Shown in pieces: positions 1,959 through 59,559 of a DNA stretch of 64,000 bases. The stretch's first letter is position 1. The number at the start of each line of letters is the position of its first letter. Made by a program: the position numbers and the translations under genes. Below the pieces are notes generated by a model. The model searched no databases. It saw nothing but the letters and a program-made list of their open reading frames with translations, and was not told the DNA's origin. This DNA comes from Asterochloris sp. CNOR1 (lineage: Eukaryota; Chlorophyta; Trebouxiophyceae; Trebouxiales; Trebouxiaceae): NCBI GenBank assembly GCA_963969365.1, contig OZ017754.1:806001-870000 (forward strand), written 5' to 3'.

Positions 1959-4900
1959 TCACAAGAACCTGTCGGGTCCAAAGCGTGGGGTCTGCTCTGC
2001 CTCATGGTCTGCCATGATCCTGTGGTCTATGGCATAATCTGTGAGAACCTGCTTCTCAGCCACATTGTACTGATACTCCTCCAACAGCCTTTCTGGCAGT
2101 GCATCGTCAAACTGCACGCCTGCATCCGGGTGGAAGGCACGCTAAAAGAAATGACGCAGCCAAAGCAGTGGCCAGGCAGCAGTTTTGACATGCGTGACAG
2201 ATGCCTGGCACCAAGCCACAGATAAAAACAAGTAAGTGTAGCTGGAGCCCCTGAGCAGGCAGCACACCGGGTGCGTGTGAAAGGTGCCTGAGGTTCTCCA
2301 GCACGGTCTCCTTTATCTTGTCCAGGTACTCTCTGGTATTCAGATTGGGGAAGGAGGGGTGCCCCGATTTGTTCTCAAGAGCAGTCAGTTTGATGTTTTC
2401 CTGCATGCCACATGTGCTATGTTTAAATTAAGCGCAGGGACGCAAGGCAGCCTACTGAAACAGGCTGATCTGGCTCTGGAGGGCGCACAGCGTGCTGCAT
2501 GCGCGGTGGCCAGCGGGGGCTCACATCGCAGGAGGTGATCTGGCCCCGCCTCACATGCAAAAAGTTGGGTTGCTGTCAGATGAGGTGGCACCCCAGCACA
2601 GGTAAGGCCCGAACCCTTGATGAATGAGCAGGCTAAAGCAACCATACAGCAAGAGCAAGGCAGAGCAGATCCACACAAGGGTCTGAGACAGCAAGGCTTG
2701 CCTGGTGGCTGATGTAGCGATTGGGGGGAATGGGCTCTGCCACATCTTCCTCCCTGCCCAGGAGGACAGCAGTCTCATAGGTCCAGCAGCGTGCCACATT
2801 CTTCTTTGTGTAGCCTCCGCCTGTACAGCAAGCGAGCTCAAGGGTTGCAAGGTTGCGGCGTCCAGGCTGTGGTGCCCACTGTGCAATGCCTCTTTACAGA
2901 CAGAGCCACGCTGTTGGGCACAGCGGCAAGCAGTGAGTGCTGCAGCTGAGGGCTGAGCATGGCTGCGCCCCGGCAATGGTCAAAATCTGCGGGCAGCTGG
3001 AGCTCTGGGGGACCTTTGGCCCTTGGGATGACTTGAGCGCGCCCTGTTAATGGAGCCAGCTTCGAAAGCCGCAAAGTCAGCCTCCACCCGCAAAGTAGCC
3101 AGGTGGAGGCTGCCACTGTTCAACCGCCTCTCCAGCCCCATCAGCCAGTGTGGGCTGAAGAGAAGCCAGGGGCTCCCTCAGGCAGAAGCAGGTGCACTGA
3201 GCTGCAGCTGAGCAAGTGCCCATACCGACTGACCAGCTTGCCAAGGCCCAATGCTTCAGAAGAACACAGCAAGATGCGACAGATGTAGGGGAGCTGCAGG
3301 CAGCAGCATGCCAACCTCCAGTGACCAGCATGGGGACGCCAAACTGCTTCATGAAGCGCACAGCCTCTGCATGCCCTCCCTCAATGCTCATCATGAAAGA
3401 GCCCAGCTTGTCGCCGCGAAGGGAGTCCGCCCCTGCAGCCAGGGATGGGCTGGGGTGGGCCATGGGCTCAACACCGTGCCAGAGGCTGATAGATGTCCCA
3501 TAGGCCAGACGGTGAGCCATATGCTGAAGGGTGTACCATAGGCTACAGGTTCAACAATGCCTCATTTCTTGGCTCATGATTCACAGGGTGATCTGCAGGG
3601 AGCTCTGTACGGATGTGCAGCAGGCTGTGCCTCAGCTTGTGCTGCTCGCAAACGAGGAGAGCGAACACTGCTGTGTGAGGGCCAGCTTGCATACAGCACA
3701 GCCGTGCCTGTTAGCATGGCCCTGTCTGCTGCGCACATGATGGCAAGGCAGCTTCCGGACATCTTTTCAGAAGATCTCCTGCAGAGGGAGTGACTGTCTG
3801 GTAGAAAGCAGGGAGACCACATGCAGGGGGTCATGGCTGTGCCAGGGCAGAGTGCTCTTTGCAGCACAGCAGGATGGTGTGCAGGTGGTGTGCAGTGACC
3901 TCCGCATTGTTGCACAGCATGGCGTTGCCAGACGGATGGCATGGAAGTACTGAATCAGAACAACCACTCCCCTTACTCACCGAACTGCAGCCTGTTTGTC
4001 CAACCTTGCATGCACCACAGCATCCAAACCACTTGTGAACAGTCTTGATGCCTGCTCAGCACATGACAATACAACAACCCCAGGGTAAAGTGCCGCAGCA
4101 GCCTGATCATGGCAGCAGCCAACACCTTGGTAGCAAAGGCTGTGGGCATCAGGAGCTGAACAGTTCTGGGGTGCCCCATGGCTGCTCAACACACTGCAGC
4201 ACAGTCCCCCTGGCCTGTGCTGTAGCAGCCTGATCATGGCAGCAGCTGACAAGAAGCAGATTGTATGCATGCAGCAGCTCACCGCATTGCAGCACAATGG
4301 CCCCCGGCTTGTAACGCTGCATGACCTCTGTCATCACGGGCTTGAACAGGGAGTGGAATGTGGGGTCGTCCACCCCCTGACTGAAGGGCACATTGAGGCT
4401 ACACAAGCGCCCACGGCCCAAGCCCGTCTCATCCACTGCGCCTGCAGGTCCAGAGGGCGGGGGTGGTCAGCACTAGTGCTGGGGGTAGCTGTGCTCCCTG
4501 GCGCATGCCGGGGCCGCCAGGCGTCAGGCCACCTGGTGGCTGGGCTGAGCTGTGCTGGTCAGGCAATGATCTGTGCCAGATTGTGCTGCCCAATGCATGC
4601 AGTTTTGCTGGGTCCTTGACCTTGTCATGTGAAAGTGCGCCTACATGGCCACCACAGTCAAGGCACACCGGTGCATTTTCCAGGAATCGCTTCAGACACC
4701 GTCTTCCCTGATGCTCAGTGCAAGCCCTTGCAGAGAAGGCCAGGCAGGGCATGCAGTTTTGTATACTGAAGAGCATCAGCTGTGACCCCTGACAAACCCC
4801 ACACAGAGAACTCATACGGTCGCACAGAAGCTGCAGCATGCCCCGCACACCATGCTGCAATTGTGAGGTTGCACCTGTGTCAGGGAAGCAGGTGAATAGG

Positions 4901-7900
4901 CCGCTGCAGCAGCTGCAGGATGAAGCAGCGCACAAGATGGCGACCAGCGATCAGGCGCCAGCTGAGTGCTGCACCTGCCAACCTGCACCTGTGCCGGGGA
5001 AGAAGGGGTAGCCATAGATGGTGTCCGTCTTCCCGTAGCTGTGGAAGCTCACAGTCATCACCCTGCAGCGCAAGCAGCTCCCTAGATGCAGTCACTGAGG
5101 GCACCATGTCGAGTGATTCCTGCAAGGGATTACCTCTGGCAACCTGCCAAGGCGCTCGCCCTAGGTCTGTAAACGTATGAGTTTAATTCGTGCAGGCGGT
5201 GGCCGCTGGGTGCCCTTCAACAGCTTCTGTCTTCTGCAGGGAGGAGGCATTGACTGCTTTTGCTGGCAGAGGCGGCCCGCACACAGCGCTTGACATGCCC
5301 ACCTGTGGGCCCTGTCTGACAACCTACCAGCAGAGCATTGGGTTCCCCAAGACACAGTCCTGATGATTAGGCAGCATGACCATCGACCCCTTGCACTGTC
5401 ACAGCAGGTCATCACCAGGCAGCACCATCATCAAGCCCTGCACACCTGTCAGCAACAAGCAGCACAGGCTGCAATTGCGACCAGGCGGTCTCTCAGGCAG
5501 CCGCAACAGCCAAGCTCATTCTCCCCCCTGCGCCTCCCCACCTGATGATGGGGTAGAATGCTGCAGGCAGCAACGAGTTCCCTTACAGAAGGTCCCTTAC
5601 AATATGCACGCCAGTATGACACCCCCCCCTCGGCCCCCCGCCGGCAACGCTGTAGATGCCTCTGCTGCAGATGTCGCCCCACAACCAATGACATTCACCC
5701 CTTTCCCCCGCCGCCTCTGCTGATCATGTACACTTCCACAGCTGCAGCCAGATGAGGCGTCATTGCCATGCCCGCTTCCCTGCAGCCCACTGCAGCCCCA
5801 CCTGTCTGTGGTGTAGAATGCCTCCTCCACGCCGTCCCCGTGATGAATGTCAATGTCCACATACAAGACGCGGGCATGGGTCTTCAGCAGCTCCAGGATG
5901 GCTAGCACCAGGTCGTTCACATAGCAGAAGCCTGCAGGGGCCTGGGCAACACATCACCCATCTGTGAAGTGTAACAGCCACAGCAGAAGCCTGCAGAACC
6001 ACATTTGTGTGGGAGATGCGGCTGGGTGGCCAGACCCAATCGAGCATGCAGAGGGACGCTTTTGGTGAATCTGTAGGCACCCCAACGGCAGTCTAAAGTG
6101 CCATCGCAGCCCATGTCAGGGCAGGAAGCCGGCAGCAGCCACGCAGCAGGTGAGAGACCAAAAGGGCTTGTGTGCTTGGCACACTGTGCAGCATCAGTGG
6201 CAGCTTGCTGGTTTTGCCACCCCTGGCACATCTGATGTGTATAGCCCACCTGACGCCTCTGCCTTGCGGGCATGGTGGAGGCCCCCAGCCCAGTTGATCA
6301 CAATGTCATAGTCGCCCTGAGCCAGCTGTTTGGCGCCATGAATGGAGCCTCCTGCAGCAGCACACACTGCCTATGAGGTTCTGGGCAAAGGCAGGCTTTC
6401 ATGCCAGGTGCACGTGCTTCTGCACAAGTGTGCAGGAGCCAGGCATGGACATGCTTGGGTCTGGAGCAGGTCTACGTAGACAAGGTCAGCCTTAGGCAAG
6501 ACAGGCAAGGATGAGGACCCTAACCATCCCAGTCTGCAGAGCTCTTCCAGCTGCTGGCACGCATTGTTGCCTGCCCACCATCTCAATTGCTGAACTGCAT
6601 ACAGCTTGCAGGACTTGAACAGACAGTGCTAGGGGCGGCCTTCTGGCATACTGGGCCTCATCCAGGCAGTGCCCAGCTGCCTGGCCACCTGCTAAGCGCA
6701 GGTGCCCCATGAGCAGGAGCTCACCTGCAGCCCCCGCTAATGTGAGACACCTGAGCCCATATCGAAGCCAGCACCCGGGGCCCACTGCCCACCCACCTGC
6801 GTGGAGCTGGCTGGAGCTTGAACCAGGTCAGCTCAACAACCCCACAACAATGAATGTGCCCACCTGCATACAGCTGGCAGAAACTGAACAGCCCATCAAA
6901 GGCGGGGCAGTCTTCCCCAAAATTGAACCGCTTGTGGTCCGGGTGGGCCTGGCTGGTGGTTTGGTCGTCCCAGTTCTTGGGGTTGTGATCCGTCCGTGCC
7001 TGGCGTAGGTATGCCACATACTCGGGGATGTGGTAGGCCTGCAGCTGCTGCTCTGTTGCGCGGCAGGGGCGCTGCAGCAGCACAAGGCCAGGGCTCAGTG
7101 CCCTTTGGATGCACACCTGCTCAGGCAGGCCGCTGGCTGCGGTGTCCATGACAGAGGGACAACACCCTAGGTCACACCCTGGGGCGACCCAGGGTCGACT
7201 TTGATGCAGCTGCCACTCCGTTGCGCAGCAGGAGCATTGCAAGCGACACCAGGGGCTACAACAGCCTGCTGCAGCACAACAGGATCAGGTAGGGCTGCCT
7301 GTGTGTTAGCAGACGGGCTGCAGCAGCAGAGGCCCAGCGTTTGCAGGGTGTTGCTGCTGCTCAGGCACAGGGTGGAGGTGGAGGGTTCTACCGCCCTGCA
7401 GCTGCTGCTCTGTTACGCAGTTGGGGCACTGCAGCAGCAGAAGCACATCGTCAGGCTGTGTGTGCCGGCTTGGGTGGCTGCAGACAGTGCCCTGGCTGGT
7501 TGTCAGCAGGCATGCTGCAGGACCTGAGCAGGGCCGAGCTTGGTGGAGGCAGTTGCGAGAGCAAGGCAACATCTGATGCATAGCAGGGGGTAAAGACAGG
7601 GCAGGCCAGGGATGAAGAGCAAATGTGGCCAGTGTGGGGTTGCCAACTGGGCTGTTGAAACCTTGTTGAACTTCAAGAGGCAAGCGACAGGGCGTCAAGC
7701 TCACATAGACGTCCATCCACTTGTCCAACTCATAGGCCTTGATGAGCTCATGGGTCATGCGCATGCGCTGGGGCTTCATGGGGTGCTTCTCCCCCGGGTA
7801 GTATGATGCGGCTGTCTCCGCTGCAGCACAACTTCAGGGATATGGCAAAGTGTTCTGGAAGCATGCTCAGTTCTCACGCTGAAGTGAGCATGGAGCTGAC

Positions 7901-12372: not shown

Positions 12373-12380
12373 TCTGTTGG

Positions 12381-12406
12381 GGGGGCAAGCCTGCAGGCTT
12401 GCCCCC
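12381..12406. repeat. Perfect 26-base palindrome centred on CTGCAG
   Basis: The sequence reads identically on both strands: five G, CAAGC, CTGCAG, GCTTG, five C. It lies nine bases after the last TTCAAGTGTAG word and about 150 bases beyond the stop codon of the Crypton recombinase. It could form a hairpin or cruciform, or mark an element end. Confidence 0.8.
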
Positions 12407-15781: not shown

Positions 15782-15837
15782 GAAGATGGATCTGGGGAAC
15801 TTTGGCGCGCTAGGGTTTCTGACCTAGTGCTTAGGTC

Positions 15838-38000: not shown

Positions 38001-39049
38001 AGGTTCGTGGCATTCTGGGAACTCTGCAGGCAAGGTGCGCCCTGCAGCTGCAGGCACTGGTCAATGCTGTGCTGCACAGCTTCGTGCTATAGCTGGGCGA
38101 CACTCCTTGCAACCTGCAGATCGGTGTCATCCTGGGAAATCCAGGCTGCAAGACTGCTGGTCACCTAATTTGCTGGGTGCTCAGCACCATGGTGCACCTC
38201 TTGATGACACTGTTGTGACCTGCAGATTGGTGGCATTCTGGGGGCTCTGCTGGCAGAGGATGCCCTGCAGCTGAAGCCACTCGTCCAGGCGGTGCTGCAA
38301 GCAGGGGAGGCCCCGGACATGGAGACAGACGACCCCCCTCTGGTGGACGGTGGCTGGGCCAGCAAGCTGGTTGCAGCCACCCTGCAGGTGGGGTGCTGCT
38401 TGCTGTACACAGCACTTTCAAGACGCTCTCGGGGAGGCAGACCTGCACGATACAGGTGGCCAACTGTCGGGATGCAATTGGGCTGTGCTATAGGCAGTCA
38501 AGCTGTCGCCTTAGCTGCTCCTCTGATGGCATGGCAGTGTGAGCACATCTGATGACACAGGCCAGCCACTCCCTGGCATCTTGGTCTTGGCCAAGCTGCT
38601 GGTGAATGTTGCTGTGGGCGCTGCTGGGCTGACCTGCAAACACTGCTGTGCACAACATGCCCATCGGGTCGACAACGGCTGGTGTGGGTACTTCTGCAGG
38701 CGCTTGAGCAGCACAAGGGCCCTGGCTCAGCCAGTCCCGCCTGGAAGGCGACCGGCATCAAATTCGCAGAGACCTTCCCATCAGTGAGTGCACCTGTCAT
38801 CTGACACTGCACACTGCTGTCCCTGTTGTGTTGCTTGAGACAAACCTTAGGCGTGGCTGCGCGACAAAGCGATGGCCTGCATATTGGCAATGCCTGAAAG
38901 CAGGCCCTCGGAAGAACTAGCTCAGCTGGCTTTAAGGATTCTCAAAAGGCGTGCCCAATAAATTAATGTTGCTGCTGCAGTTTGAGAGGGACGACGAAAA
39001 GGTGCAGCAGAAGCTGCTCAGCCAGTTTGGGCTGGACCTGAGCATTTAG
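23079..39049 (+). CDS. EIF4G: Translation initiation factor eIF4G (first exon not located)
   Basis: Scaffold of the cap-binding complex that bridges eIF4E, eIF4A and eIF3. Exons, phases matching: 23079-23131, 23275-23367, 23497-23702, 24256-24462, 24998-25991, 26207-26341, 26612-26973, 27346-27985, 28226-28418, 29100-29313, 29632-29746, 30313-30467, 31448-31609, 32245-32487, 33303-33515, 34162-34269, 34615-34794, 35141-35319, 35984-36133, 36518-36698, 36947-37042, 37381-37515, 38226-38387, 38700-38783, 38981-39049; about 1,775 aa. The N-terminal half is disordered: Gln/Gly/Pro-rich with FSFGSLPP, then Ala/Lys-rich. YTRDFLLNL (exon at 29100) is the eIF4E-binding YxxxxL-phi motif. MIF4G runs from about [18 protein letters not shown] to [13 protein letters not shown]; an MA3-like domain follows from [10 protein letters not shown]. 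The start codon upstream of 23079 is unresolved. Several introns carry exon echoes. Confidence 0.92.
24451..24630 (+). repeat. Echo of eIF4G exon end at 24462
   Basis: The exon end plus donor, ATGCCTGCGCAGGTGGGCCC, recurs exactly at about 24588-24607, about 137 bases later within the same intron. After it a similar GCTTGCTGT-GC-GCTGCT stretch continues in both. The second copy keeps a potential GTGGGC donor. Confidence 0.75.
24746..24781. repeat. Perfect 16-bp hairpin in an eIF4G intron
   Basis: The left arm GCAGATGATTGGGGCA (24746-24761) and the right arm TGCCCCAATCATCTGC (24766-24781) are exact reverse complements around a TGCC loop. The hairpin lies in the intron between 24462 and 24998. 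It could be a small-RNA foldback, the remnant of an inverted-repeat element or a splicing structure. Nothing else supports a choice. Confidence 0.8.
26743..26880 (+). repeat. Coding Ala/Lys/Pro repeat (AEAKP units) in eIF4G
   Basis: Within the exon 26612-26973 the protein repeats short units of the type [24 protein letters not shown], matched by a DNA period of about 30 bases (GCTGAGGCCAAGCCT-like words). It belongs to the disordered region upstream of the eIF4E-binding site and was probably expanded by slippage or unequal exchange. Confidence 0.7.
31590..32115 (+). repeat. Echo array of eIF4G exon end at 31609
   Basis: The exon end GGCCTCATCGCTCAG with its GTGGGCTTTGCC intron start has decayed copies in the following intron, near 31690-31720, 31765-31855, 31884-31915 and 32085-32115. 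The second retains GTGACCTAGTGG, GAGTGAGGAGACCAAGTC and GTGGGCTTTG, clearly derived from the exon. The last retains GAATCCGGCCTCATTATTCA and then GGTGGGC. Stops and lost frames show that they are not exons. Confidence 0.75.
32444..32750 (+). repeat. Echo array of eIF4G exon end at 32487
   Basis: The exon end GCTGAGAAGGACAAGGCCAAG, the GATGCAGATGAGGAG block and the following intron bases (GGCTGTGGCAG..., then GGC TGGCA, ACATGAAA) recur near 32572-32665 and, weaker, near 32675-32750, with spacing of about 115 bases. The functional donor is the first (GTGAGG at 32488). Confidence 0.75.
38002..38310 (+). repeat. Two decayed copies of an eIF4G MA3 exon before the real exon
   Basis: The real exon starts at 38226 (ATTGGTGGCATTCTGGGGGC...). 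A copy at 38002-38085 keeps the order GTGGCATTCTGGGAACTCTG, GCCCTGCAGCTGCAGGCACT, GGTCAATGCTGTGCTGCA. A shorter copy at 38119-38150 keeps ATCGGTGTCATCCTGGGAAA. All follow a CTGCAG- or GGCAG-like acceptor and are about 106-117 bases apart. The upstream copies have lost the frame. Confidence 0.75.
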
Positions 39050-39609: not shown

Positions 39610-42600
39610 TCAGCTGCCTTGCATGGCAACTTCAATACATTTCAAAAGGTAATCATGCAGCTTATCAAGGACAGTGGGAAAACTTGCAATGCTGACATGG
39701 ACAACTGGCACATCCCGCTGAGCATATCGGCACAGCCGGTCCTGCAGACTGTGGAGGCGTTGGTACACAGATTCTGGGTAGTCTGGGCTGGAGCATCCGT
39801 TCTGCAGACAGAGAGACACCCCGGTGCTTTGCAGCAAGTGGCAGATGATGCACACCCTTTCACATAGACCAGCATCCCTCGTCTACATCTGGGCGCAGAC
39901 ATGGTGCACACCAGCACAGCAGCGCTCACCAGTTGGCGAGCATGCCACTCCTGGATGAGGACTCTGTGGTCTGACTCCTCCATGGCAAGCACTATTGGCA
40001 CAAACACTGGGGAGTTACTGTCTTTGGGGGACTCGATGCTCTTGTTTGTTGATTGGTTGCCTGTGGGTACACTGTTGTTGGCAGAGCTTAGTCGGACGTC
40101 TGTGGGCTGCTGATCAGAGGGGGCCTGGGAGGGTGCTGGTGGGCGTCTATCCTGAAAAGTGGCTGGTACGTGCTCCAGCTCTTGTTGAAGTGCCAGGAGC
40201 TGCCCAGATGAGGACTGCATGAGCGGCAGGGAGCTATGCAGCAGCTGCGGCAGACCATCCACCGGCTCTGTCTGCTGCCGCTCGGCGCATGCAGCGGCGC
40301 TGTGCACATCTGAGGTTGGCTGTGTAGCGCATGCTGGTGCAGACTGGATCTGATCAAGCTTGCGCTGAGTCTGAGCATCCTTGACAGCATGTGCCTCCAG
40401 CATAGCCGTCAGCGTAGCCACATCGGCTGTGCTGCAGGCTTCAGCCTTGCGGTCTGAAGCAGCCAAGGCTGCCAGCTCAGCTGTGATGCTACTGCCAGCA
40501 GCGGCCTCGACGGCAGCAGCTGGCTTGCTGCTGCCCTGCCTGCTGAGCTGCTCGGCCATGGCTTGGCGCAGCCACTCGGAGCCTGGGGAATGAGAGAGGG
40601 CAGGCTGCTGCTCCTGCTGAGGCACGAATGGCTGGGCCTCCTTTCTGACGGGAAACCCGGCCTGCAGCAGCCAGCGCATGAGGGTGAGTGGGGTCAGGCG
40701 AGCTGCCACTGCTGCTGCGATTGAGGCACGTTGGGCTGAGATTGTCAGCCTATAGCAGGCGACATGCCATTGAGAGGTGCAAAGCGCCTCAGTGGCCTCC
40801 TCAAACAGGCCAGCTGCCTGCAGCATGCTGGGGCTGCCATGAGGAGCAGCCTCTGTAAGAAAGGACAACACAGGCAAAAGGTAATGCTAGCGTGCACACG
40901 TGCCTCAAAATGCAGCAGCAGGGGTTGAGCAGTGAAGCATGCAGTCGCTAATACCACTAGGCAGTTGGCTGCACAGAGGCTTCAGCAGCAGGAAGCTCAC
41001 CCAGGCAGTGGTCTTTGTGGTAAGGAAGCAGTGCAGACAGAGCGCAGGCATGCAGACCGAAGTGCAGAGGTTAGCAGGGCGCATCTGGGCAGCATTCAAG
41101 TCTAGCAAAGCTCTCTTTGCTTCCGCTGAGAAGAGTGGCACAGATGTGCAACAGTCTGCACCCGTTGTGCAGACAGGGCAGCCTACAGCGCAGGGACTCC
41201 AGCGACAGGAAGCGCAGTTTGGTGCACACTCACCTCCTGGGAGTGTTGTGCAGGCTGCTGACAGTGAGGGGGCATACAAGGGGGGAGTACCTGTAGTGGG
41301 CAGCAGCTCAGGCATGGAGCTGGGCCTCCTCTGCATGGGCCCCCTGTGCTCGGTGCATGCACCCCCCACTGACAGGCAGCCTGCAGCGCAAGACCTCCGG
41401 AAGCAGGTCGTGCACCTGGGCAATTGCCTCCTCCCAGGAGGTCAGCACAGGCTGGTGCCGATCCTCGCGGGAGGTCAGCGCGAACAGCATGCGCGCGCTG
41501 GGGCGCTGCAGCGTGGCCCGCAGGTGGCGACCCCCAGGGGGCTGCAGGCTGTCATCGGCAGCCGCCTTCCTGCGGGGGCCCGCAAGCCCTGCCCCTGCAC
41601 TGAGTGCTGCCTCTGCAGCATTGGCCCGCTCAGAGGGGCATTGCTCCTGAGGCGCTCCTGCAGGGTCGGCGCCACAGGGGGCAGGGCCGCCGTCTGCTGG
41701 CTGTGCAGGGGGAGAGCTGGGTGCACGTGCCTGGGAGGCTTGTGCAGGCTGCTGCAGGTCCGCGCTGCTGACCTGCACAGCAGACACATTCACGTCATGA
41801 ACTGACTCTTGAGGGCAGACACAGCGCGCTCTGCAGTTGTGCTGCCTACAGGAGCCAGCCTGCAACAGCGACCCAGCTGGTGCTCCTTGCTGCCACCAGT
41901 ACATGGCACAAGCTGCCCAGGCCGGTCTGGCCTGGCGTGAGCATGCACGCAGGCAACTGCCCTCGCCCCTGTGAGGTGCAGGTGGGCTGCCTGGCCTCGC
42001 CTGCTTGCTGAGCGGTGTAGGGCTGCCAGCGAGGCCCTCAAAGTCGCTGCTGCCTGTCAGGTGGCCCACTCCATACTTCCCAAACTCGTACAGGTACAGG
42101 CCCGGGTCCAAGTGGAACCCCTCGATGATTATAGACTTTCCATCTTTCACAGTCTGCAGCATCAGGATTGACCAGCGTGAGACGTGCTGCGTGCAAAATC
42201 ATCATGTCTGGGAACGTCATGACGTTTGTCTCGAGGTTTTGAGACAGGTCAGCCAGCACACCCACCATTGCAGGAGGCACAGACTGCGGCATGTATCTCG
42301 ACAAGCCGACAGGCGCCTGGCAGGCCACAGTAGCTGTCCTCAGCAGAGGCATCTAAAGCACGTCGCTGCCCATAGCAGCTGCATGCAAGACTGGCATCCA
42401 CTTGTGCTGTCTAACGATGCCTCACCACCTTGTCACTGTGTATATGACTGAGCGGCCTGTGGCTGCCCCAGGTGCCAGCCCACCTGGGCCAAGATCCCCT
42501 CCAGGCCCTTGTGCACATTGTGTCACGCCTGCTGTGTCTAGGCTAACAACTTGGTACGTGCTTCGCCTCACTGTCACAGTCTGGTCCCCTTCTGATGGCA

Positions 42601-45424
42601 TGCTCCCAGCCTCAGTCGCCCTTGATTTCAACCTCACTTGTACCCAGCACTGAGGATGACACAGCTTACCTTGGCCAGATCCCCCTCCAGCCCCTTGCGC
42701 ACTACATGGCACTCCCGCTGGAATTGGGCAATCAGGGCATCGCCACTCAGACCCGCCTCGTCGCTCCACAGGGACGGGCCGTGCAGGGGGCCGTGGTGGT
42801 GGGGGTCCATGCGCAGCAGCTGCAGGCACACAGGCGGCCAGTCAGGTACCAGGCAAGGACCAGCAGTGGGTTGAGCTGTGTGCGCAGCAGCTGCAGGCAC
42901 ACACAGGCAGCCCATGCAGGGGCTTGTGGTGGGGCCCGAGGGGGTTGCTTGCAGCAGCTGCAGGCACACAGGGTCAGGCCTGAGTGCAGCAGCTGTTATA
43001 CGGTCTGCAGGCAGTGGTACACTGAGCAGGTGGCGTGAGGCAGTGCAGGTCCACCACTGCAGGCAAGGCCAGCTGGCACGAGTCCTTCCCAGATGGGGTG
43101 CAGCTGTGTGATGCACGGCAGCAGAGGCTTGCCCATATTCCTGCTGGGCACAACCTGGTGCAGAGGGGGTAGTCCAAGGATGCCTTGGCACGCGCGTGCA
43201 TCCACAGGCGCATGAGCAGTTGCACCAGGCCCACCTCGCATATGATGTCTGTCTGCAGCACGTTGGGCATGTTGAGGCGGGACGCCAGCTGCTGTGCCAT
43301 GGAGGACTTCCCTGCAGGCACGAGAACAGCAGCGTTGCTGCACAGTGCCAACGCAGCCTGTGTGCAGGTTCTGACTTAGTGCCAACACGTGAGGAGCACG
43401 CAGGGGTCTATGCTGTACGGCAAGCCGAGTGCCAGCCACATCCATGCCGTCCACTTGATGGGCAGTCTCCACAGAGGATTGACGGCTAGCTGCCAAGTCC
43501 CAACTGTAGCCTCTTGCGACAGAAGTGGACCACAATGTGCGCAGCTGCCGGGCAAGTGCGTTGCACTGATGCCACAGCTGTGTAGTGAGCCCACCCATGG
43601 GTCTTGCTGGCAGTGGCAGTCGCCTGTCACCACGCAGCACTCAGCAGGGGCCCTGCGCCACAACTCACTGACCTGTGCATGGCAAACAGCACACCAGAGC
43701 GCTGCCACAGCATCACCATGCTGGACTTGAGCAGACAGCAGCTGCTGCACACACAGTATACCACAGGGAAGAGCTGTCCTGGCATAAACAGACAGTCCTG
43801 TGTGCGAGAGCACGCCCTGGCCACAACCCTTGCAGCTGGATGTGCACTTGTGGGCTGCTGACCTGTGCAGGGCGCTCCGCACAGCAGGATGATGAGGGGT
43901 CGCCGCTGCTGGTGGAAGGCTGTGACCATCTTGTAGCGCTTGACATACTCCTCTCCATACCCCTTGTTTGACATGATGTGAAATAGAATCTCCTCAAGAT
44001 TCCCCTGCAGTCACATCTGCTGGTGAGCCCAGCTGAAAGCGCAGTGCTTGTGGGCCGTCCACCAATCAATTCATGAGGACACGGCAGATCATCAGCCCTT
44101 GTTGGCATGTGAGCCATGTAGAGCATCAAGCCGCAAAGAGCGTCAAGGCCAGAAGCACAGCTCGTTCTAGAACAGAAGTGGAGTGTTCCCCTGCAGACTT
44201 TAGTGCTTGTGAGTCGAGCCAGCAGGAACCCTGTAGGTCATCAATGGCAAAGCCTCCTTCAGCCCCTGTGTAGTTGTGGAGCTGCATGTCAGAAGTGCAG
44301 CCCTTGTTGGCCATGATGTGAGACAAATTCAATTCCAGGTTCCTGTGCAGAGGCATCAGAGCTCATGACAGTCGGCCAGTGCTGCTTCATGAGACTGACG
44401 CACGGCACCCTACATTCATCATGGAAAGGCATGGCCCCGGATCCAGGATGTGCACCCTTATCGGCACGCAGTACTGCTCATTCACAGCAAGAAGGGCTCA
44501 TTGCTGGCTTTGTCTGGTGCAGGTGGAGCCCTAGAAGCAGCTACAGGAGGGGGACATCAGATGCAAGAAAACGTCAACCATTGGCAACATGCTGCTGTGC
44601 AGTCACATTGCACTCTCAGGGTGCTCCACCGCTGGTGGCTGCTGCCGCTGGCGAGGCCAAGCTAGAAGATTTCTGCAGCAGCTAACCTGCGTGATGTCAA
44701 AGTGATTGCCGTCCACAAGGTACTTCTTGACTTCAAGGGCGATCTTCACAGCCTGCAGAGGTCACTGCCATGTAAGCCCACACAGGCAACTGGCCGTAGG
44801 CGCTGAGAAGCCTGCTCAGCAATGTGTGTTTGCTGAGGCTGCCTAGGCGGCCGGGGATTCCAGGGAGTTCACGAGATGCCTAAGCAAGTGCGCTGGTACT
44901 GGTGCCGCCTGCCAGCAAGCAGCAGGAGGGAGGCAGGGGACCTGAGGCAGCCAGACTTCTTAACCCCAGCACTGGCTCACATGCAAGCAGGCCCGCCCTC
45001 ACAGGGAACGGCGCCCGGCCCCCACCTTCATGTAGGGTATCTTGGTCACAGTGAGCATACGGCTGATGAGGAAGCGAGACAGGATGTAGTAGTGAGCCTG
45101 CGTCTCCCCTAGCCACACCTTGACCTGCAGAATAGGTGCAAGGGAGGAGTGTAGAGCAGAGCAGCATTGCCGAAGCCTACTGACTGCCCTCAACATTCTG
45201 TCTCGACACCTCACAATCCGGCAAGCAAGGCCTCTCCAAATGAACGCTGCACACTTGAAGCCCTGCAGCTCCATTCCTCAAGTGCTGCCCACCATCACTT
45301 GAACATGCTTTACCTTGATGAAGTCATACTTGCTGGCAGTGTGGCGCTTGCTGCGCTGGGCCTGTTCCCCAGCCCAGATGCCCATGGCCTGAGACTTCCT
45401 GAATGGTGCTGCAGCTGCTGACAT
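39610..45424 (-). CDS. 2-phosphoglycerate kinase-like P-loop NTPase (plant type)
   Basis: Resembles the plant P-loop proteins annotated as 2-phosphoglycerate kinase; the real substrate is not shown by the sequence. Exons on the minus strand: 45424-45314, 45124-45026, 44752-44687, 44004-43863, 43311-43235, 42819-42670, a long open stretch from 42153 to about 41300, then 40852-39930 and 39801-39610. Recognised blocks: ILSRFLISRMLTVTKIP, VKIALEVKKYLVDGN, NKGYGEEYVKRYKMVTAFHQ, Walker A GAPCTGKS (split by an intron), RLNMPNVLQTDIICELLR, ECHVVRKGLEGDLAK, DGKSIIIEGFHLDPGLYLYE, PVFVPIVLAMEESDHRVLIQ and EWHAR, and a C-terminal VPVVHVSIASFPTVLDKLHD. The region 42.1-41.3 kb stays open and encodes low-complexity sequence; its exact splicing is unresolved. 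Exons 40852-39930 and 39801-39610 are in phase. It starts head-to-head with V-ATPase c. Confidence 0.85.
42812..42972 (-). repeat. Triplicated acceptor edge of a 2-PGK-like exon
   Basis: The plus-strand word GCGCAGCAGCTGCAGGCACA, which contains the acceptor and first codons of the exon 42819-42670, occurs near 42811 and again near 42882; a third copy near 42951 is slightly changed (TTGCAGCAGCTGCAGGCACA). The period is about 70 bases. All copies keep the CTGCAG acceptor, so alternative acceptors are available upstream of the real exon. Confidence 0.8.
43957..44359 (-). repeat. Echo array of the exon starting at 44004
   Basis: The exon start (minus strand AATCTTGAGGAGATTCTATT, then CACATCATGTCAAACAAGGG) has two copies in the preceding intron. 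The one near 44350-44298 reads GGAATTGAATTTGTCTCACA and then TCATGGCCAACAAGGGCT. A weaker one near 44128-44091 keeps ACATGCCAACAAGGGCTGATG. Only the copy at 44004 continues into the conserved domain. Confidence 0.75.
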
Positions 45425-45756: not shown

Positions 45757-47288
45757 ATGGCTCAGTGGACAGGAGATGAGGTCGCGCCATTCTTCGGTTT
45801 CATGTAAGTGCCCTTGCTGTCCGGCGCAGCAGATCCCTGCCTGCATTGACGTGGGCCTCTTCCCGGCTCTAACGACCCTCTCCTGGCTGCAGTGGGGCAG
45901 CAGCGGCCCTCATCTTTGCATGTAAGCCTTTTGCCCTTGCCTGTTGCCATCACATTGGACCTGCGTGCCCTGCCCTTGCTGCTGATGCCACTGCTGCCCC
46001 CATGCTTGCGCTCTGGCAAGGGGCCAGGCTCCTTTGAATCAGGTGGTTGGTGTCTGGGCCCCTGCCTGGTGGGCTTCCACGTGTGTCCTCATGTTTTGCC
46101 AGGTTTTGGGGCGGCCTACGGCACAGCCAAGTCAGGTGTGGGAATTGCCTCCATGGGTGTGATGCGGCCAGAGCTGGTCATGAAGTCCATCATTCCAGTG
46201 GTCATGGCTGGAGTGCTGGGTATCTACGGCCTGATCATTGCCGTCATCATCTCTACTGGAAGTGAGTTGCTGGCTGCACATCTTTGAAAGCCTGGGTCTG
46301 CGTCCTCTGGGTCTGCTCTGCGTCGGGTCTGTCATCATCTGCACCGAAAGGGAGTGGCTGGCTGCACCAATGTTGGCAGCCTGACTCTTGTGTCCTCTGT
46401 GCCTGATCTGCGCCTGGTGTGTCATTCGATGTAAGTGGCTGGCTGCACAGTGTGGGCAGTCTGGCTCTTGCACTTTGGGCCTGGGCTGTGCCTGCACCAA
46501 TGATTTGCTGTGAAGCAAGTTTGTCCTTGTCGGCAGAGGGCTGGCCGTTGGCTAGAAGCACCGAGCTGTCTGCGCGCTGCCCCTGCTAGCATAAAAAGCT
46601 ATTCTGATGCGGGCTGCCTGCCGGTCTCTTCTTGCCTGTGCAGGGCTGGGCCTTGTGCTGGAGCACACCCTCAGCATTGGGGCTTACCGAGTTTGCCCTC
46701 TGCCTGCAGTCAACCAGACAGCTGACAAGCCATACTATCTGTTTGATGGGTATGCACACCTGGGCGCAGGCCTGGCCTGTGGCCTGTCAGGCCTGGGTGC
46801 TGGCATGGCCATTGGCATTGTGGGAGATGCAGGTGTCAGGTCAGTCCTGGCCCCCACAATACAGGACATGCTGTTGCCTGGGCCATGGCCTTTCTCACGT
46901 CCCCTGTTTCTGTACCCCAGACAGCTCAAACTGCGTTGTCTAAGTTGCCATGGGCCTGCCGCATCGCTTTCTGCAGCCCGCACCCTTATGGCTCCTAGAT
47001 AAGCTTGGCCTGGCTGGCACCGCATAGGCTCAGGCAGTGTCCAGGTCTGCACCCCTCGATCTGCTGCTGCTGCTGTAGGGCCAATGCACAGCAGCCCAAG
47101 CTATTCGTGGGCATGGTTCTGATCCTCATATTTGCTGAGGCTCTGGCTCTGTACGGTCTGATTGGTGAGCCCCCATACTGTCTTCACGAGCTGAACTCCA
47201 GCATGAAGCAAAAATTGCTGACAATGTGTCTTGCCTTGCAGTCGGTATCATTCTGGCATCCAAGGCTGGTACAGCAACCCCAGCGTAA
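45757..47288 (+). CDS. V-type H+-ATPase 16 kDa proteolipid subunit c
   Basis: Membrane rotor subunit of the vacuolar proton pump. Six exons, 45757-45803, 45893-45921, 46103-46261, 46710-46839, 47079-47164 and 47242-47288, give 498 nt and about 165 aa, the normal size of subunit c. All phases agree. Four hydrophobic helices are evident: [20 protein letters not shown], a second in [20 protein letters not shown], a third in [20 protein letters not shown], and a fourth in [20 protein letters not shown], whose Glu is the proton-carrying residue. The block [20 protein letters not shown] is essentially invariant in eukaryotes. The second exon is only 29 bases long. The intron 46262-46709 carries a decayed three-unit tandem array derived from the preceding exon end. 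The gene is divergent from the 2-PGK-like gene and 244 bases upstream of prolidase. Confidence 0.96.
46243..46515 (+). repeat. Three-unit echo array of a V-ATPase c exon end
   Basis: Unit 1 (46243-46330) contains the last 19 coding bases, the functional donor (A|GTGAGT) and the start of the intron. Unit 2 (46331-46420) begins GTCATCATCTGCACCGAAAG, followed by GGAGTGGCTGGCTGCAC. Unit 3 (from 46421) begins GTCATTCGATGTAAGTGGCT, then GGCTGCACAG. Period 88-90 bases. Unit 2 has lost its GT donor; unit 3 has GTAAGT at nearly the same place. Confidence 0.85.
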
Positions 47289-53286: not shown

Positions 53287-56200
53287 ATGGCACTGGGCCG
53301 TCAAGGCCTTGCCCAGTTCGCATCCAAGTTCAGCTCCACAGCCTACAAGAGCGCTTCTGAGCGCGTGACCCTTACACCAGTCGCGGCCGCTGCAGTCGCT
53401 GTCTGCTCAGGCGCCCCTTTCCAGCCTGCGTGGCAGTGCCTGGCTCATGCCCAGCCCTCAACTGCCCAGGTTTTTCCAGCAGGGCAGCATGCGGCCTTTG
53501 TAGCACCTTCCTACACGGTGAGCCGCTTGCAAACGCCCCCAAGGTTTAGGAAACGCACACTGCCTTGCTTGGTGGGCCAATCACATGAGTGGCCATGAGG
53601 CCTGTTTTACTCAGCAAGCATGGACACCTGGCTCCACACAGGCACCTTCAGGCGTGACTGCCCACAAACTTGCCAATTTGACTGGTTTTCTCCTTGCATG
53701 AGGGTGCCAGCAGCCTGCTTATCCCATACACATTGTGCCTCAATAGCCTGGCCAGAGCTGAAAGAAATGGCCCCTGACCAGCCTGCTTTGTGGCGTTGGT
53801 TGCTGCCCTACCGCTGAACAGGTCACCTGCCTGCCTGCCTTCGCATTGTTGGCTGCCCCCTAGGCACTTGAGGTGGTGCATGAGTTCGAGTGCACCACTT
53901 CTGCAGCCAACTAGGCTCACCAGTCAGCATGAAACTCCTCAGACCAGTGCCTGGTGGCCTGCAATCTGCAGCCTCAGCCACTGCTGGGCGGCCGAGGCGC
54001 CCATGACACCCCCAAGGCTTCTGGCCACAGCCCGAGGTCACCCAGACAGGCTGCTACAGAGTTGTATCCTGTGCCACTCTGCTTGCAGTTTGCAGCCTCG
54101 GCTGCTGCCCAGGCTGCAGAGGCGGTCTATGAGCCCCCAGAGGCCTCCGGCTTCACCCGCGACCCCTTGCAGCAGCCGGAGCTCAAGAATGAGCCCCCTC
54201 CTGACAAGCGCCAGCGCAAGCCCTTCATGCCACTGGATTTCAATGACTTCCAGGAGGCCGCAGTGTCTAAGAAGAGCTGGGAGCTGGTGCGGTCCTGGGG
54301 GGTGTTCACCGTCTGCCAGGTGAGTTGCCGTGTGCCAGAGCTGGCACCAGAAAAATGCGGTTGAGCATGCCGGCAGTCGCAGGGCAGTGTTTAGGCTGGG
54401 AGCAGGGGCAAGCCCTGGACAGGCTGCCCAGGCATCGCGGCTTTCTCAGTGCAGCTGTGGGCACAGGGGTTTCAAGCACTGAGAAAGCAGACCCAACCTC
54501 ACCATGTAGAGGGGGTATCATGTGCCTCTGCGACAGTTGAGTCCACCCTTGGCAGCCTGGTTGCACCAGGTCCCTGACCTTGGCTCCCGCCTTTGTCTGC
54601 GGCTGAGTTACCTGTGCTGGTGCTGCCTGCAGATCCAGCCACTGGTGAAGCATGCCGACTCCGTGCTCAGCCTGTCCAAGAGGATTGTGGGCTCCACCCT
54701 AGTCAACTTTGGGGTGAAGCACACCTTTTTTGCACACTTCTGCGCCGGTGAGCCCTGCATACCACCATGACTGTCTAGAGCTCTGTTCTGTTACATGCAC
54801 TCTGCAGCACATTGCTTGGGTGCCATCTGGCCTCTGGTGCAGACAGGCATTGCTGCTCCACTTAGTTGTGTGCATCGCACATCTTGTGAGCAGTCTCAAG
54901 ATGGCAATGTCACCTGGCTGCTGCCAGCTCTGGCTGCACAGCGCCTGTCTACTCTGCCCACACCACCTGGGGGGTTGCGCTCCCTGCCACAGAGCCCGCC
55001 TTATATGCCCTGCCACCCCGTTGTTGCTGGCCACACAAAGCCGGTGCTGTTGCGCACTATCTTGCTTCCTCGGGTGCAGGCGAGGATGGTGACAACATCC
55101 AGCCCAAGCTGCAGATGCTGCACTCCAATGGGATTGGTGGGATCCTGGACTACGCTGCAGAGGACGATGTGGGTGCAGAGGAAGGGCCAGCTTCGCGGTC
55201 CCAGCCCCATGACTCTGTCATTGCCAGGTATGCCAGTCATCTGAAGCACCTCTTGGACTGCAATTGGGCTCCCTGCTCCGATACTCTTAATGCTGCAGCC
55301 GGTGCGCCTGGAGCGCCCTGCGCCGCGGCACTGCCTTTGTAGCGCACTGCCTAATCCACTAGCAAGCCTGCAGTGGTGGATCCACCTGCCTGGGAGCACA
55401 GGTGCAGGCTGGCTTGTGTGCCATGGCAGTCAGAGTGTGGCTGTCAGCAAGTGTGATGCCTGCAGCCATTGCATCTGTCCCATGCAGCTTGCTCTTCTGC
55501 TGTCCTCAAGCTGCTGGACTCTGTCATTGCCAGCTTGCAGCTGCTGAGCTGCAGCCAGCTCAGTTGGCCCCCAGAAACATCTAGTTTCGGCATGCTGCTT
55601 ACTTATTGCATTGCCGTGTATGGCCCTTGTAGCCACTGGTCTGCAGGTGGCACCCTGTCAGTTATCATGCAAACTCAGGCCGCCTTGCCTGGTATCCACA
55701 CACTCCTGTCGCTGCTGCTGTGCCTCCTGTAGCAATTGCCTTACACAGCCCTCACTGACAGGCTACAGGCATGATGCATGTGGAAGAAAAGACATCACCC
55801 TCCGCCCCTATACGTGCTGCTGCCTCAGCATTCCCTTCACCTGTTGCTGCCTGACTGTGCAGGACCTTTGACTATGGCAGCGAGGCGGACTGCGATGCCC
55901 ACATGCGCATCTTCATGAAGAGCATTGAGGCAGCCGCCAACGCACCCGGCCAAGGCTTCGCTGCCATCAAGGTCAGCATGCTAGCAAGGACATAGCTGTA
56001 AGGTGGCTGCCAGTGCCTATGTCATGGTTGCAAAGCTGTGCAGATCGCTGGAGATGCACATAGGTGCCGTGCAGACTTGGTGCTGCAGTTTTCTGCCGAG
56101 CTGAAGTGATGCGCTTGGCCACTTCCAGCCAGGGCTTTGCTGCCATTGTCTCAGTCATCATGCTTTCCAGCACATGCTGCCTAGCCTCAGTACAGCAGAC

Positions 56201-59200
56201 GGCCTGGCACAAGCATGCTCCCTTGAGGCCTTCAGTCCCTGAGATGGAGCCTCTGCTACTCTATTGGGGCACAGCCCCTGTAGTGTTGCAGTGAACACTG
56301 AGCCCTGACCTGCATGTGGTCGCCTGCAGGTGACAGCACTGGGCAACCCTAAGCTGCTTGAGCGTGTATCCTCCGGCCTGGTGGCCATCCGAAACCTGTT
56401 CAGCCAGTTTGACAGTGACATGAACAACGTCATCACCCGCGAGGAGTTCAAGTCGGTGAGGCTCTGCAAAGTGGTCCCACAGTTCCTGCTGCTGTTTAAA
56501 AGGACGCCTCAACAAGCCAGCAGGCAGTCTGATCATGCAGCAGTGGTGGAGCACGCACCATTCATGGCTTCTGTCAGCAGCTGGGGAGTCTGGGTGCATG
56601 CGCCTGTGCGGCTGCTGTCCTCTGGTCCCTGGTTCCTGGCGCTGAGCTTGGATGGGCAGCTGTTGCAATGCTGGTGTACCGTCACTTTTCTGGATTGCCT
56701 GGTTTCTGAAGCTGCAGTCACAAACGCAGCTGTGTGCAGATGCGTGACCATTATGATACTGTGCAGTACCACCCTGATGGTGGGCACTTGACACGCAGGT
56801 GTATGAGCAGCTGTTTTCAGACGCCACCGAGGAGCGCATTGAGAAGCTGTTTGACTACCTGGACTGCGACCACAGCGGGTACGTTGACTACCTCTCCTGG
56901 AGCCGGGCAGTCAAGCTCGAGGTGAGTGGGTGGTGACTCAAGTGGACGGTGTTGATGCATGTGCACGAGCCGGGCAGTCAAGCTCGAGGTGAGTGGGTGG
57001 TGACTCAAGTGGACAGCGCTGGTGCATGTGCACGAGGCCTTTTAAAGCAATTGGTGCTGCAGTGTTTGAGGCACTGCCAGACTGCCTCTGCACTCTGCAG
57101 CTGTGTTCGACTGGACACCAGGCGTGGCAAGCTTTCCACCCCTGCTTCAATGATGTGGAGACTTGGCCCAGAAACTTGGCGCCGCCTGTGGCCTTCAGAT
57201 CTTGGCTTATAAGAGTGCCTGTGCCTGTAGGACATCCCCAACATCATCAAGCACTGCCGCGCTCCTGGCCCGCTGTACTTGAGCAGCCTTAGCGAGCAGG
57301 AGCTCAAGCTGCTGAGCAACATGATGCAGAGGCTGCACAATGTGGCTGAGACTGCCGCTAAGGTGATCGGGAGTACCTTGACAAATGCTGGGGCTAGCTT
57401 GGTTGACTCATGAATTGTGTGCAATCGTGTGGCGGTGCTAGCCCATAGGGTGGCCTGTGAACTTGTTGGCTGCTTCTGAGTTGTCTAGAGGCCCTCAATC
57501 TAGTCACCACACCTTGGGCAGCTTGGCTTGCTGTGCTGCACTGGCTGGTGAAATCAGCAGTGCTTAGCCCTCGCAAAATCCTGCTGCAGAAAAATGTACG
57601 TTTGATGGTGGACGCTGAGCACAGCTACTTCCAGCCGGCCATTGACCACGCAGTGGTGGAGCTGCAGCGCAAGTTCAACCACGAGGTCCCTGTCATCCTC
57701 AACACTTACCAGTGCTACCTGAGGGTGAGTGTGAGACCCTGACTTGCCACCACTGTGGGGGCTCTGATGGAGGCATGCCTAGCTAATGTGTGGAGTGCCA
57801 GGCTGCTCTCCCTCAGTCAGGTGCTATGTCAGCTCTACAGCAGCAGCTGTCGGCTGGTGTATTCCGGGTGTCTGGGGAGCAACGTGCAGCAGACCACACT
57901 GCTTGGCCATTGCTACCTTGTCCCATCCTTGAGGTCCTTGCCTCTACCCTGCAGGAGCCATGCGGAGCACTTGTGTCTGGGGCCCCTCTGACTTCCTCCT
58001 TTGCCCACAACCTGTTGGCTCTATTCTCACTTGCCACTTCAGCAGGATGTAGGGATGCTGCATCCCGGAGTCTGCAGCACAGCCCACCTCGTACTAATGT
58101 GTGCCCCGGCCGTGCTGCAGGACTCCGGCGACCGCCTGATGCTGGACATCGAGCGCAGCCGCCGTGAGCACTGGAAGTTTGGTGCCAAGCTGGTGCGGGG
58201 AGCCTACATGTACCTGGAGAAGGCTCGTGCAGATGAGCTGGGCTACCCCTCCCCCGTGTGGGACTCGCTGGAGCAGACCCACGCCAACTACAACAGGTGG
58301 GGAGTGCTGCCTCCCTTATTTGCTCCCTCAGCTGTTGTCCTGCCCAGCAGCCATGCAGGGTGCAGCCTGAGGTGTGGCAGACTCGTCCATTTGCTCTCTG
58401 GAAGCCCTTGCATGCATGCATTCCGCAGGCGTTGACCATCAGCATGGGCGGCAGCTACCCCTTCAGCAAGCTGCTCACAGGGGAAGCTCTCACACCCCCT
58501 GGCAAGCTCGCAGACTCAAGCTACCTCATGCAGGTGCACTGACAAGTTGCTGATCACATCCAAGGCTGCAGCAGCTGTCGCTCTTTAGAGCCAGAGCTCA
58601 CATACTTGGAAGGTCCCACAGACCCTCGCCTCATCTGCGCTGCATTGACGATTTGGTAACTATTACTAGCCGACGCTGAGCAAATGCTGAACGACAGCTG
58701 CTTGCAGAGAACCCCGCTCTCAATGAGCAACCTTTTAGGCATAATCTACCACCTGCAGGTGCATAGACGAGCTTGTGACCATCAGTAAGGGCGAGGGAGC
58801 GGAGGTCATGATCGCCACCCACAACCAGCGCAGCATAGAGCGTGCAGTCGCGCTCATGAACGAGCTGGATGTGGAGGCCAACCAGATTGGCGTGTACTTT
58901 GGGCAGCTGCTGGGCATGGCTGACCACCTGACCTTCATCCTCGGGCGTAACGGCTACCGGGTGAGTCCACTTGTCTGAGGCGCCGGCTGTTCTTCGAGAA
59001 GGCCAGACCAGCAGCGCTGACGTTGTGGCCTTCATCCTGAGGCACCCTAGAATGAGAGGGGTGCTGGGTCTGCCGAACTGGAAGACCAGGCCTTTGACCT
59101 GCTACTATTCATCCTGTGGGGCAGCGCCACAGTTGGGCCTGTTACCTGCACTCATACCAGGCTCCGGCTTGGCTGGTGCATTGGGGCTTGTGCTCAGTGG

Positions 59201-59559
59201 CTTTGCGCAGCATGTCCCCTTGGTTAGGGTTGATCAGGACCGGTAAGGCCGGATTTCCTTGAGCCTTGCCAGCACAAGGTGTGCCGCGTCCCTGGCACCT
59301 GTGCTGCTGATCTTAAGCACATACCTGATCAGGTTGTATGCCTCTCCTGCAGGCTTACAAGTATGTGCCCTTCGGCCCTGTGGAGGAAGTGATGCCTTAC
59401 CTGATCAGACGTGCTCAGGAGAACTCTGACATCATGACTGGCGTGACTCGCGAGAAGGCCATGATCAGGGCAGAGCTGTGGCGCCGCTTGAAGAGGATTC
59501 TGACATTTGGCATGGGCGGGCAGGTCACCCCCGCCAAGTCTGCCACCGTGTCAGAATGA
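53287..59559 (+). CDS. PRODH: Mitochondrial proline dehydrogenase with EF-hand insert
   Basis: FAD enzyme that oxidises proline to pyrroline-5-carboxylate at the inner mitochondrial membrane. Twelve phase-consistent exons: 53287-53517, 54089-54319, 54633-54747, 55080-55227, 55863-55971, 56330-56455, 56799-56921, 57231-57362, 57590-57724, 58121-58296, 58759-58960, 59353-59559; 1935 nt, about 644 aa. The start [20 protein letters not shown] looks like a mitochondrial presequence. Barrel motifs: [85 protein letters not shown] (paired Arg bind proline). An insert holds an EF-hand loop [12 protein letters not shown] with all ligands, and a second, [12 protein letters not shown], lacking the final Glu. 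Intron echoes follow exons 4, 5 and 7 and precede exon 11. It lies directly downstream of prolidase. Confidence 0.94.
55211..55534 (+). repeat. Echo of proline dehydrogenase exon 4 end
   Basis: The last 17 coding bases of exon 4, GACTCTGTCATTGCCAG (55211-55227), recur exactly at about 55518-55534 in the following intron, within GGACTCTGTCATTGCCAG. The copy lacks a GT after it (CTTGC follows), so it is not a donor. Confidence 0.7.
55953..56170 (+). repeat. Echo of proline dehydrogenase exon 5 end
   Basis: The exon end GGCCAAGGCTTCGCTGCCAT with the following GGTCAGCATGCT recurs near 56128-56166 as AGCCAGGGCTTTGCTGCCAT, then TGTCTCAGTCATCATGCT. The spacing is about 175 bases, within one intron. 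Confidence 0.7.
56900..57033 (+). repeat. Nearly exact 67-bp tandem duplication across an exon-intron boundary
   Basis: Unit 1, 56900-56966, holds the last 22 coding bases of exon 7, the donor GTGAGT and 45 intron bases. Unit 2, 56967-57033, repeats it with only a few changes (GGTGTTGATG versus AGCGCTGGTG). Both units keep GAGCCGGGCAGTCAAGCTCG and an intact GTGAGT donor. Using the second donor would add 67 bases and break the frame. This is the youngest echo seen in the window. Confidence 0.95.
58430..58790 (+). repeat. Four-copy echo array before proline dehydrogenase exon 11
   Basis: The real exon begins at 58759 with GTGCATAGACGAGCTTGTGA then CCATC. Decayed copies begin near 58644 (GCTGCATTGACGATTTGGTA), near 58534 (GTGCACTGACAAGTTGCTGA) and, weakest, near 58431 (GCGTTGACCATCAGCATGGG). 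The first two still follow a TCATGCAG- or CATCTGCG-like acceptor. Spacing is about 103-115 bases. Confidence 0.75.

Follow-up and report, generated by a model that had tools for sequence, protein, structure and literature searches.

The stretch of DNA described here, in the following called the window, comprises 64,000 nt of an Asterochloris genome of 56.38 Mb in 21 contigs (C9:806001-870000, contig OZ017754.1; rbcL was found on contig C21). It contains genes for a histone deacetylase (HDAC), eIF4G, a 2-PGK-like protein, V-ATPase c and proline dehydrogenase (PRODH), and in the introns of these genes decayed direct copies of the adjacent exon edges, here termed echoes, were identified. For Asterochloris glomerata, a genome of 56 Mb was described, with a GC content of 56-62% in 98% of the genome and 9 introns per gene (PMC6652019). 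The echoes were analysed in a genome sample of 244 kb, consisting of the window and 18 random 10-kb stretches, one per large contig.

Gene structures were obtained ab initio with a hidden Markov model gene finder, written for this work and trained on the 244 kb. The model predicted 495 exons and 459 introns with a median intron length of 292 bp; neighbouring genes were fused in this model, and young echoes were sometimes called as exons. The splice consensus was CTGCAG/G for the acceptor and AG/GTGAG for the donor (slash, junction), and both the G at position -4 of the acceptor, which was absent from the prior, and the T at -5, for which only a weak pyrimidine prior was given, were learned at a value above 0.9. 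Eight of nine protein sequences from the window were matched by Pfam, namely as HDAC, PsbR, MIF4G (eIF4G), V-ATPase c, M24 peptidase, Pro_dh with EF-hand, Tcp10_C and AAA/P-loop. The last families were the only ones found for the 2-PGK-like gene, for which the name 2-PGK is thus unconfirmed. The HDAC gene model was aligned to PDB chain 5icn_B (Histone deacetylase 1) with query residues 3-52 and 89-453. From the random stretches, four of five protein sequences were matched (NAD kinase, coatomer beta, eIF3a and CBF/Mak21).

Exon-edge copies in the window and in the genome sample

For each exon edge, a query of at most 90 exon bases and 8 or 15 intron bases was compared with its own intron, with the same intron reversed, and with introns of similar length from other genes, which share the splice consensus. 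A match with a score of at least 18 was regarded as a strong echo. Introns below 60 bp (21 of the 459) and edges for which the query was below 40 bp (109 of 876) were excluded, leaving 438 introns and 767 edges.

A strong echo was found in the own intron for 78 of the 767 edges, and in the reversed intron for a single one. Introns of other genes reached this score in 0.11% of 15,025 comparisons, and other introns of the same gene were slightly above that rate, with 7 of 1,366. At a score of at least 15, an echo was present at 16.0% of the edges, versus 1.3% per edge after permutation. The 5' and 3' edges of the introns behaved alike (38/376 and 40/391 with a strong echo). The echoes were clumped, since 29 edges had two or more of them and about 15 were expected. 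In the window, 17 of 206 edges carried a strong echo, close to the 61 of 561 in the random stretches, which showed that the echoes occur beyond the window; at least one strong edge echo was present in 15 of the 18 random stretches.

The same excess was obtained independently of the annotation. In the window, 151 ungapped direct-repeat segments were counted (distance 20-300, score at least 13), compared to 31 and 35 in two shuffles. For the window and the 18 stretches together, 277 repeats were present (score at least 16, distance 50-300), compared to 5 per shuffle. A gapped self-comparison (distance 30-800, score at least 18) resulted in 228 direct and only 4 inverted pairs, whereas one shuffle gave 5 direct and 1 inverted. 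After the removal of 3 repeated rows and of 18 of 225 pairs as low-complexity sequence, 207 pairs remained, which represent 137 separate loci or 0.56 per kb, with at least two in every stretch; local direct repeats were present in all 18 random stretches.

An origin of the echoes by chance, by similarity of the splice consensus, by low complexity or by errors of the gene model was considered, since the consensus is common to all junctions and the model is ab initio and fuses neighbouring genes. However, the introns of other genes contain the same consensus and hardly ever match, the annotation-free counts show the same excess, and the low-complexity pairs had already been removed. On the basis of the other-gene controls and the annotation-free counts this origin was rejected, and it is hardly conceivable.

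The original prediction had described such copies for at least a dozen introns of the five genes named above. This description was confirmed, as an echo with a score of at least 15 was present in 24 of the 116 introns of the window (111 of 438 in the whole sample), and the edges with such an echo are distributed over HDAC (6/22), eIF4G (10/44), the 2-PGK-like gene (5/19), V-ATPase c (1/9) and PRODH (4/23). Also the nearly exact 67-bp unit predicted at 56900 was recovered, with 94% matches reported by Tandem Repeats Finder.

Placement and decay of the copies

The individual echoes of the window are the following, with the period in bp and the percentage of identity.

56900..57036, plus strand: PRODH, two 67-bp units that cross the 5' splice site (exon end 56921); the youngest of the echoes in the window
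53957..54156, plus strand: PRODH, 3' splice junction echo; intron copy at about 53957-54032, exon edge 54081-54156, period 124, 72%
46243..46494, plus strand: V-ATPase c, 88-bp array from the 5' splice junction (exon end 46261), mostly intronic; below the list of edges with a score of at least 18
24388..24628, plus strand: block 5' of the eIF4G MIF4G region, 5' junction echo, period 133, 80-81%
28369..28585, plus strand: eIF4G, exon tail 28369-28411 copied at 28543, period 174, 84%, short of the junction
31546..31853, plus strand: eIF4G, 5' junction of the MIF4G exon 31448-31609, echo at 31768 with period 222 and 78%; in addition two weaker copies
32427..32751, plus strand: eIF4G, exon tail and donor, repeats at periods 121 and 229
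33209..33343, plus strand: eIF4G, exon edge 33291 (3' junction) with a copy in the intron at 33209, period 82, 83%
36092..36237, plus strand: eIF4G, 5' junction echo, copy at 36194, period 102, 82%
37249..37414, plus strand: eIF4G, 3' junction echo, period 121, 76%
37990..38299, plus strand: eIF4G, exon 38226-38387, 3' junction with copies at 38107 and 37990 (periods 106 and 223, respectively)
42476..42720, minus strand: 2-PGK-like gene, 5' junction echo, period 186, 79%
42769..42969, minus strand: 2-PGK-like gene, 3' junction echo, period 138, 81%; weak exon model here
43668..43887, minus strand: 2-PGK-like gene, 5' junction echo, period 190, 80%
43961..44357, minus strand: 2-PGK-like gene, 3' junction echo, period 340, 72%
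3217..3364, minus strand: HDAC, 5' junction echo, period 94, 74%
4184..4312, minus strand: HDAC, 5' junction echo, period 94, 80%
7205..7433, minus strand: HDAC, exon-head copy, period 192, 78%, short of the junction; related repeats from 7038

In the PRODH echo at 56900, the sequence GAG/GTGAGT is retained in both copies, and splicing at the second donor would lengthen the transcript by 67 nt with a change of frame. The eIF4G region additionally contains in-frame coding repeats of 15, 30 and 45 bp rich in Ala, Lys and Glu (26739-26874, plus strand).

As proposed originally, the copies mostly represent tandem duplications across a splice junction, which is crossed by 60 of the 78 strong echoes and abutted by 4. 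Their period ranges from 58 to 418 bp with a median of about 121 bp, and their identity has a median of 0.785 with a best value of 0.93. For several pairs, the length of the alignment is about that of the period, which identifies them as true tandem units. Of all 207 pairs, 141 have periods of 50-200 bp, where multiples of a unit inflate the long periods and the score cut-off disfavours units below 50 bp. By placement, 141 pairs touch an exon, 41 lie only within introns, 14 are exon to exon, and 11 involve intergenic DNA.

For the strong echoes, the rate of mismatches was 0.205, 0.220 and 0.276 at the first, second and third codon position, respectively. The exon part was frameshifted in 32 of the 78 echoes, and was frameshifted or contained a stop codon in 36. 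Both results are expected for a copy which decays freely beside a constrained exon, in agreement with the predicted decay of the intronic copy. A further part of the prediction, that spare splice sites accumulate in the introns, was not borne out. The splice dinucleotides of the echoes were kept in 37 of 59 cases, compared to a fraction of 0.611 for other dinucleotides in the same alignments, and splice motifs inside the 438 introns showed no significant excess on the sense strand; thus, spare sites are not visibly kept. In introns with echoes, GGTGAG was counted 20 versus 12 times (z 1.4, not significant). An accumulation of spare splice motifs was therefore rejected. TGCAGG was even depleted in the interior of the 438 introns, with 180 occurrences on the sense and 279 on the antisense strand, which suggests selection against decoy acceptors.

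Age and origin of the duplications

Very probably, a short tandem duplication can persist in this genome if it lies across a single splice junction, as the use of the outer junction in splicing would remove the inner copy and leave the protein intact. In this reading, short segments of about 50-300 bp, with a median period of about 120, were tandemly duplicated at many sites of the genome. A duplication within an exon would usually harm the protein and be lost, and one within an intron or across a single exon-intron junction would be tolerated. At the 5' site, exon-intron (E-I) would thereby be converted to E-I-E'-I', and at the 3' site the product would be I'-E'-I-E; in both cases, splicing at the outer junction would remove the inner E', which would then decay as part of an intron that has gained the length of one unit. 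By analogy to rice, the units likely originate in patch repair, in which adjacent nicks or staggered breaks are repaired.

Introns with an echo of a score of at least 16 have a median length of 462 bp (n=94), versus 234 bp for introns with none of at least 12 (n=241). The rate of echoes with a score of at least 16 climbs from 3.6% of the edges in introns of 60-120 bp to 30% in introns above 700 bp, with a chance level below 1.6% throughout, and the detected copies account for 8.4% of the intron bases. The predicted lengthening of introns is consistent with these values, which fit growth by duplication short of proof; longer introns also offer more room for copies.

If the process were steady, young copies should be no fewer than old ones over an equal span of divergence. 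In the data, 14 of the 207 pairs (6.8%; 16 when rounded to two places) are at least 0.9 identical, a shortage which a collapse of near-identical young repeats in the assembly could mimic. The ratio of exon-touching to intron-only pairs is 3.4 (141 to 41, leaving out the exon-exon and intergenic pairs). Uniform duplication with a splice filter was simulated and subjected to the same detection as the real data, with an assumed rate of insertions and deletions and a fit by eye. For a steady uniform process, one simulation gave 31% of pairs at least 0.9 identical and a ratio of 0.65, and other settings gave 13-31% and ratios of 0.6-1.1. A rate rising into the past resulted in a ratio of 0.8. In contrast, a wave at 0.20-0.35 neutral substitutions per site resulted in a ratio of 2.85, 3.3% of pairs at least 0.9 identical and a similar identity spectrum. 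Since young pairs are few and the exon-touching ratio is high compared to the steady simulations, the simulations favour, without proving it, that the duplications mostly date from a past wave and not from a steady process still at work. The continuing process of the original prediction is therefore doubtful, given 13-33% of young pairs in the simulations at a steady rate. A steady, uniform duplication still proceeding at the same rate would be in accordance with the few young examples present, at 56900 (94%), at 2540 of stretch L015 (98%) and at 8998 of L008 (90%), and on the simulated values it is rather improbable.

Several observations weigh against a past wave of junction-straddling duplications. 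The best wave yields 112 pairs per 244 kb compared to the 207 real ones, at a wave rate which was not tuned; the fit is sensitive, with ratios from 0.85 to 13.4 depending on the age of the wave and the rate of insertions and deletions, and a wave with a modest recent background gives a ratio of only 1.2-1.9. In the alignments, 14 of the 78 strong echoes end short of the junction, and the 14 exon-to-exon pairs among the 207 would be forbidden by a simple filter, some of them being errors of the gene model. As a sign of selection on these exon-internal pairs, the period modulo 3 was no discriminator (0 in 7 of 14, too few). No clear gradient of age with distance was seen, as the nearest copy was the more similar one in 17 of 29 cases, which is not significant. 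The echoes contain 9 stop codons where 18.3 would be expected at random (P 0.016), and 152 of 418 single changes are synonymous, more than the 110 expected. The changes of the exon copy itself explain part of these two deviations, and certain copies may have served as coding sequence for some time. Finally, the density of echoes differs between genes beyond the effect of intron length, which is not predicted by the duplication model.

The shortage of stop codons would also be in agreement with copies that are functional, as alternative 5' or 3' splice sites or as alternative exons under selection. For this speaks in addition an exon for NAD kinase in L005, of which three copies are 76-88% alike and two are open enough to be joined by the gene model. 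However, the splice dinucleotides are kept at the background rate, nearly half of the exon parts are broken, and the acceptor-like TGCAGG is depleted within introns in the sense direction, so that a function of the copies is quite unlikely. If duplication were directed to exon-intron junctions, as might occur through splicing-coupled breaks or R-loops, the predominance of exon-touching over intron-only pairs would be accounted for. A steady process with fourfold junction targeting indeed reached a ratio of 2.05 in the simulation, but predicted 33% of pairs at least 0.9 identical. Moreover, the densities in intron interiors (41 pairs in 157.7 kb) and in intergenic DNA (4 pairs in 18.3 kb) are similar, although these numbers are small, and the slower decay of exon copies after a past wave can give the same bias. 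Targeted duplication is thus considered unlikely, if marginally less so than functional copies, and duplication at random sites followed by the filter of splicing is preferred.

The NAD-kinase exon in L005 lies at 9010-9316 and encodes GSLGFMTPFAMDRMQ; it is present in three tandem copies, two of which were joined by the gene model. This repeated exon is a candidate for a recent or an alternative exon.

The differences between genes were tested for 35 groups and were significant (chi-square 74.7 versus 37.5 in permutations, p 0.0015). After control for intron length, examples were L009 (10/25) and L019 (12/38) on the one side and L011 (0/34) and the M24 peptidase (0/25, with other bounds than below) on the other. 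In the window, echoes with a score of at least 15 were present at 26 of 117 edges in the five named genes and at none of 79 in the others, a grouping made after the fact; 10 of the 206 window edges lie outside the gene-by-gene regions. No echo of this score was found for PsbR (0/10), the reverse transcriptase (RT)/recombinase-like gene (0/24), the block at 18.7-23.1 kb (0/14), the M24 peptidase (0/23) and Tcp10_C (0/8). The RT/recombinase-like gene has short introns with a median of 86.5 bp. One possibility for the cause of the differences is a later arrival of some genes in the genome.

For a predicted gene at 12363-15626 (minus strand), 9 of 12 introns are only 71-108 bp long, and the gene has no echoes. 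It has an NDC10_II match below the curated cut-off (E 0.0097), and it looks like a mobile gene of the tyrosine-recombinase type. An open reading frame at 17016-18407 (minus strand) codes for a reverse transcriptase with an RVT_1 match, and a further one at 15835-16395 (plus strand) has, by eye, a similar Cys-rich tail. These two are probably the remains of two retroelements, presumably of the non-LTR type. The PsbR gene is located at 8528-9438 (plus strand) and is joined by the model to an open reading frame at 10934-11677 without a Pfam match. For the V-ATPase c query, the only match outside the window is one of 40%.

Relation to known processes

Among the accepted routes of intron gain is tandem genomic duplication (PMC3443670; cases in Drosophila, PMC2891723). 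Like in this route, a short duplication within a gene, the harm of which is cancelled by splicing, would here turn intronic and decay. Unlike in intron gain, in which an exonic duplication with AGGT forms a new intron, existing introns would grow by a duplication that spans an existing junction. The AGGT model predicts that the exon tail equals the intron tail and that the period equals the intron length, a situation which was clear in only 1 of 438 introns. This intron of 143 bp near 5939-6082 on the minus strand of L019 has a period equal to its length and a match of the exon tail to the intron tail; alternatively, it could represent two tandem exon copies. A birth of the introns themselves by duplication of AGGT-bearing exon segments might also be read from exon-head/intron-head matches, which at low scores are slightly above expectation (7 versus 3.2 at a score of at least 6, and 2 versus 0.6 at a score of at least 8). 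Other exon-tail matches, however, are at the permuted level (16 versus 16.4 at a score of at least 6). As a general cause, intron birth by duplication was rejected on account of the single clear case and is highly improbable; the growth of existing introns remains the preferred explanation.

With Exonize, intronic and inter-boundary exon duplicates were identified in 20 eukaryote genomes, in more genes than full-exon duplications (PMC12343006). The echoes resemble this class in being copies of exon sequence wholly or partly inside introns. They differ from it, since Exonize uses tblastx and cut-offs for exon coverage, whereas the echoes are partial, detected on the DNA level, tandem, mostly anchored at a junction, and found at roughly every sixth edge for a score of at least 15. 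Introners are comparable in the mass creation of intron sequence; however, they copy themselves into many genes (PMC9860276), and the exon edges, which are the only part compared here, have their matches in the own intron, with very few in introns of other genes.

For rice, tandem duplications were described as the commonest source of insertions, enriched among mutations of 50-200 bp and ascribed to patch repair, with a share of events that falls beyond 125 bp (PMC7971508, which cites Vaughn and Bennetzen 2014 and Schiml 2016). The units identified here are mostly of the same size. In rice they are young variants, whereas here they are old, decayed remains which are clearest at exon edges. Patch repair implies breakpoints at adjacent nicks with little microhomology. 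The extra homology at the breakpoints was -2, 5, 6 and 3 bp for the only 4 young clean pairs.

According to the original prediction, no such habit had been described for an alga. No account in a green alga was found among the matches listed, which covered titles and the openings of abstracts, with most subscription papers outside the scope. The novelty is limited in that intronic and boundary-crossing exon duplicates, and intron gain by tandem duplication, are known from the papers cited above. The parts of the mechanism are thus known; the junction-spanning form, the density, the likely age and the gene-to-gene differences look new.

In this genome, the growth of introns by short tandem duplications, without transposons, can be traced step by step. 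Each duplicate can be compared with the constrained exon as a clean reference, so that the mutation, the way in which splicing makes it tolerable and the following decay are seen within one genome. For gene finders and surveys of exon duplication, the echoes are a warning, as young ones were called as exons by the model used here (NAD kinase in L005). By means of the echoes, old tandem duplications can be dated and counted, and it can be asked whether the repair of nicks or breaks changed in the lineage of this lichen alga and tested whether such mutations are sheltered by splicing. As a tentative picture, which is possible rather than probable, the Asterochloris lineage may have experienced a wave of short tandem duplications throughout its genome, as a main cause of intron lengthening. 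Its introns would then form a fossil record that can be dated, with the original of each decaying copy kept in the living exon edge beside it, and the genes would differ either in the impact of the wave or in whether they were present by then.

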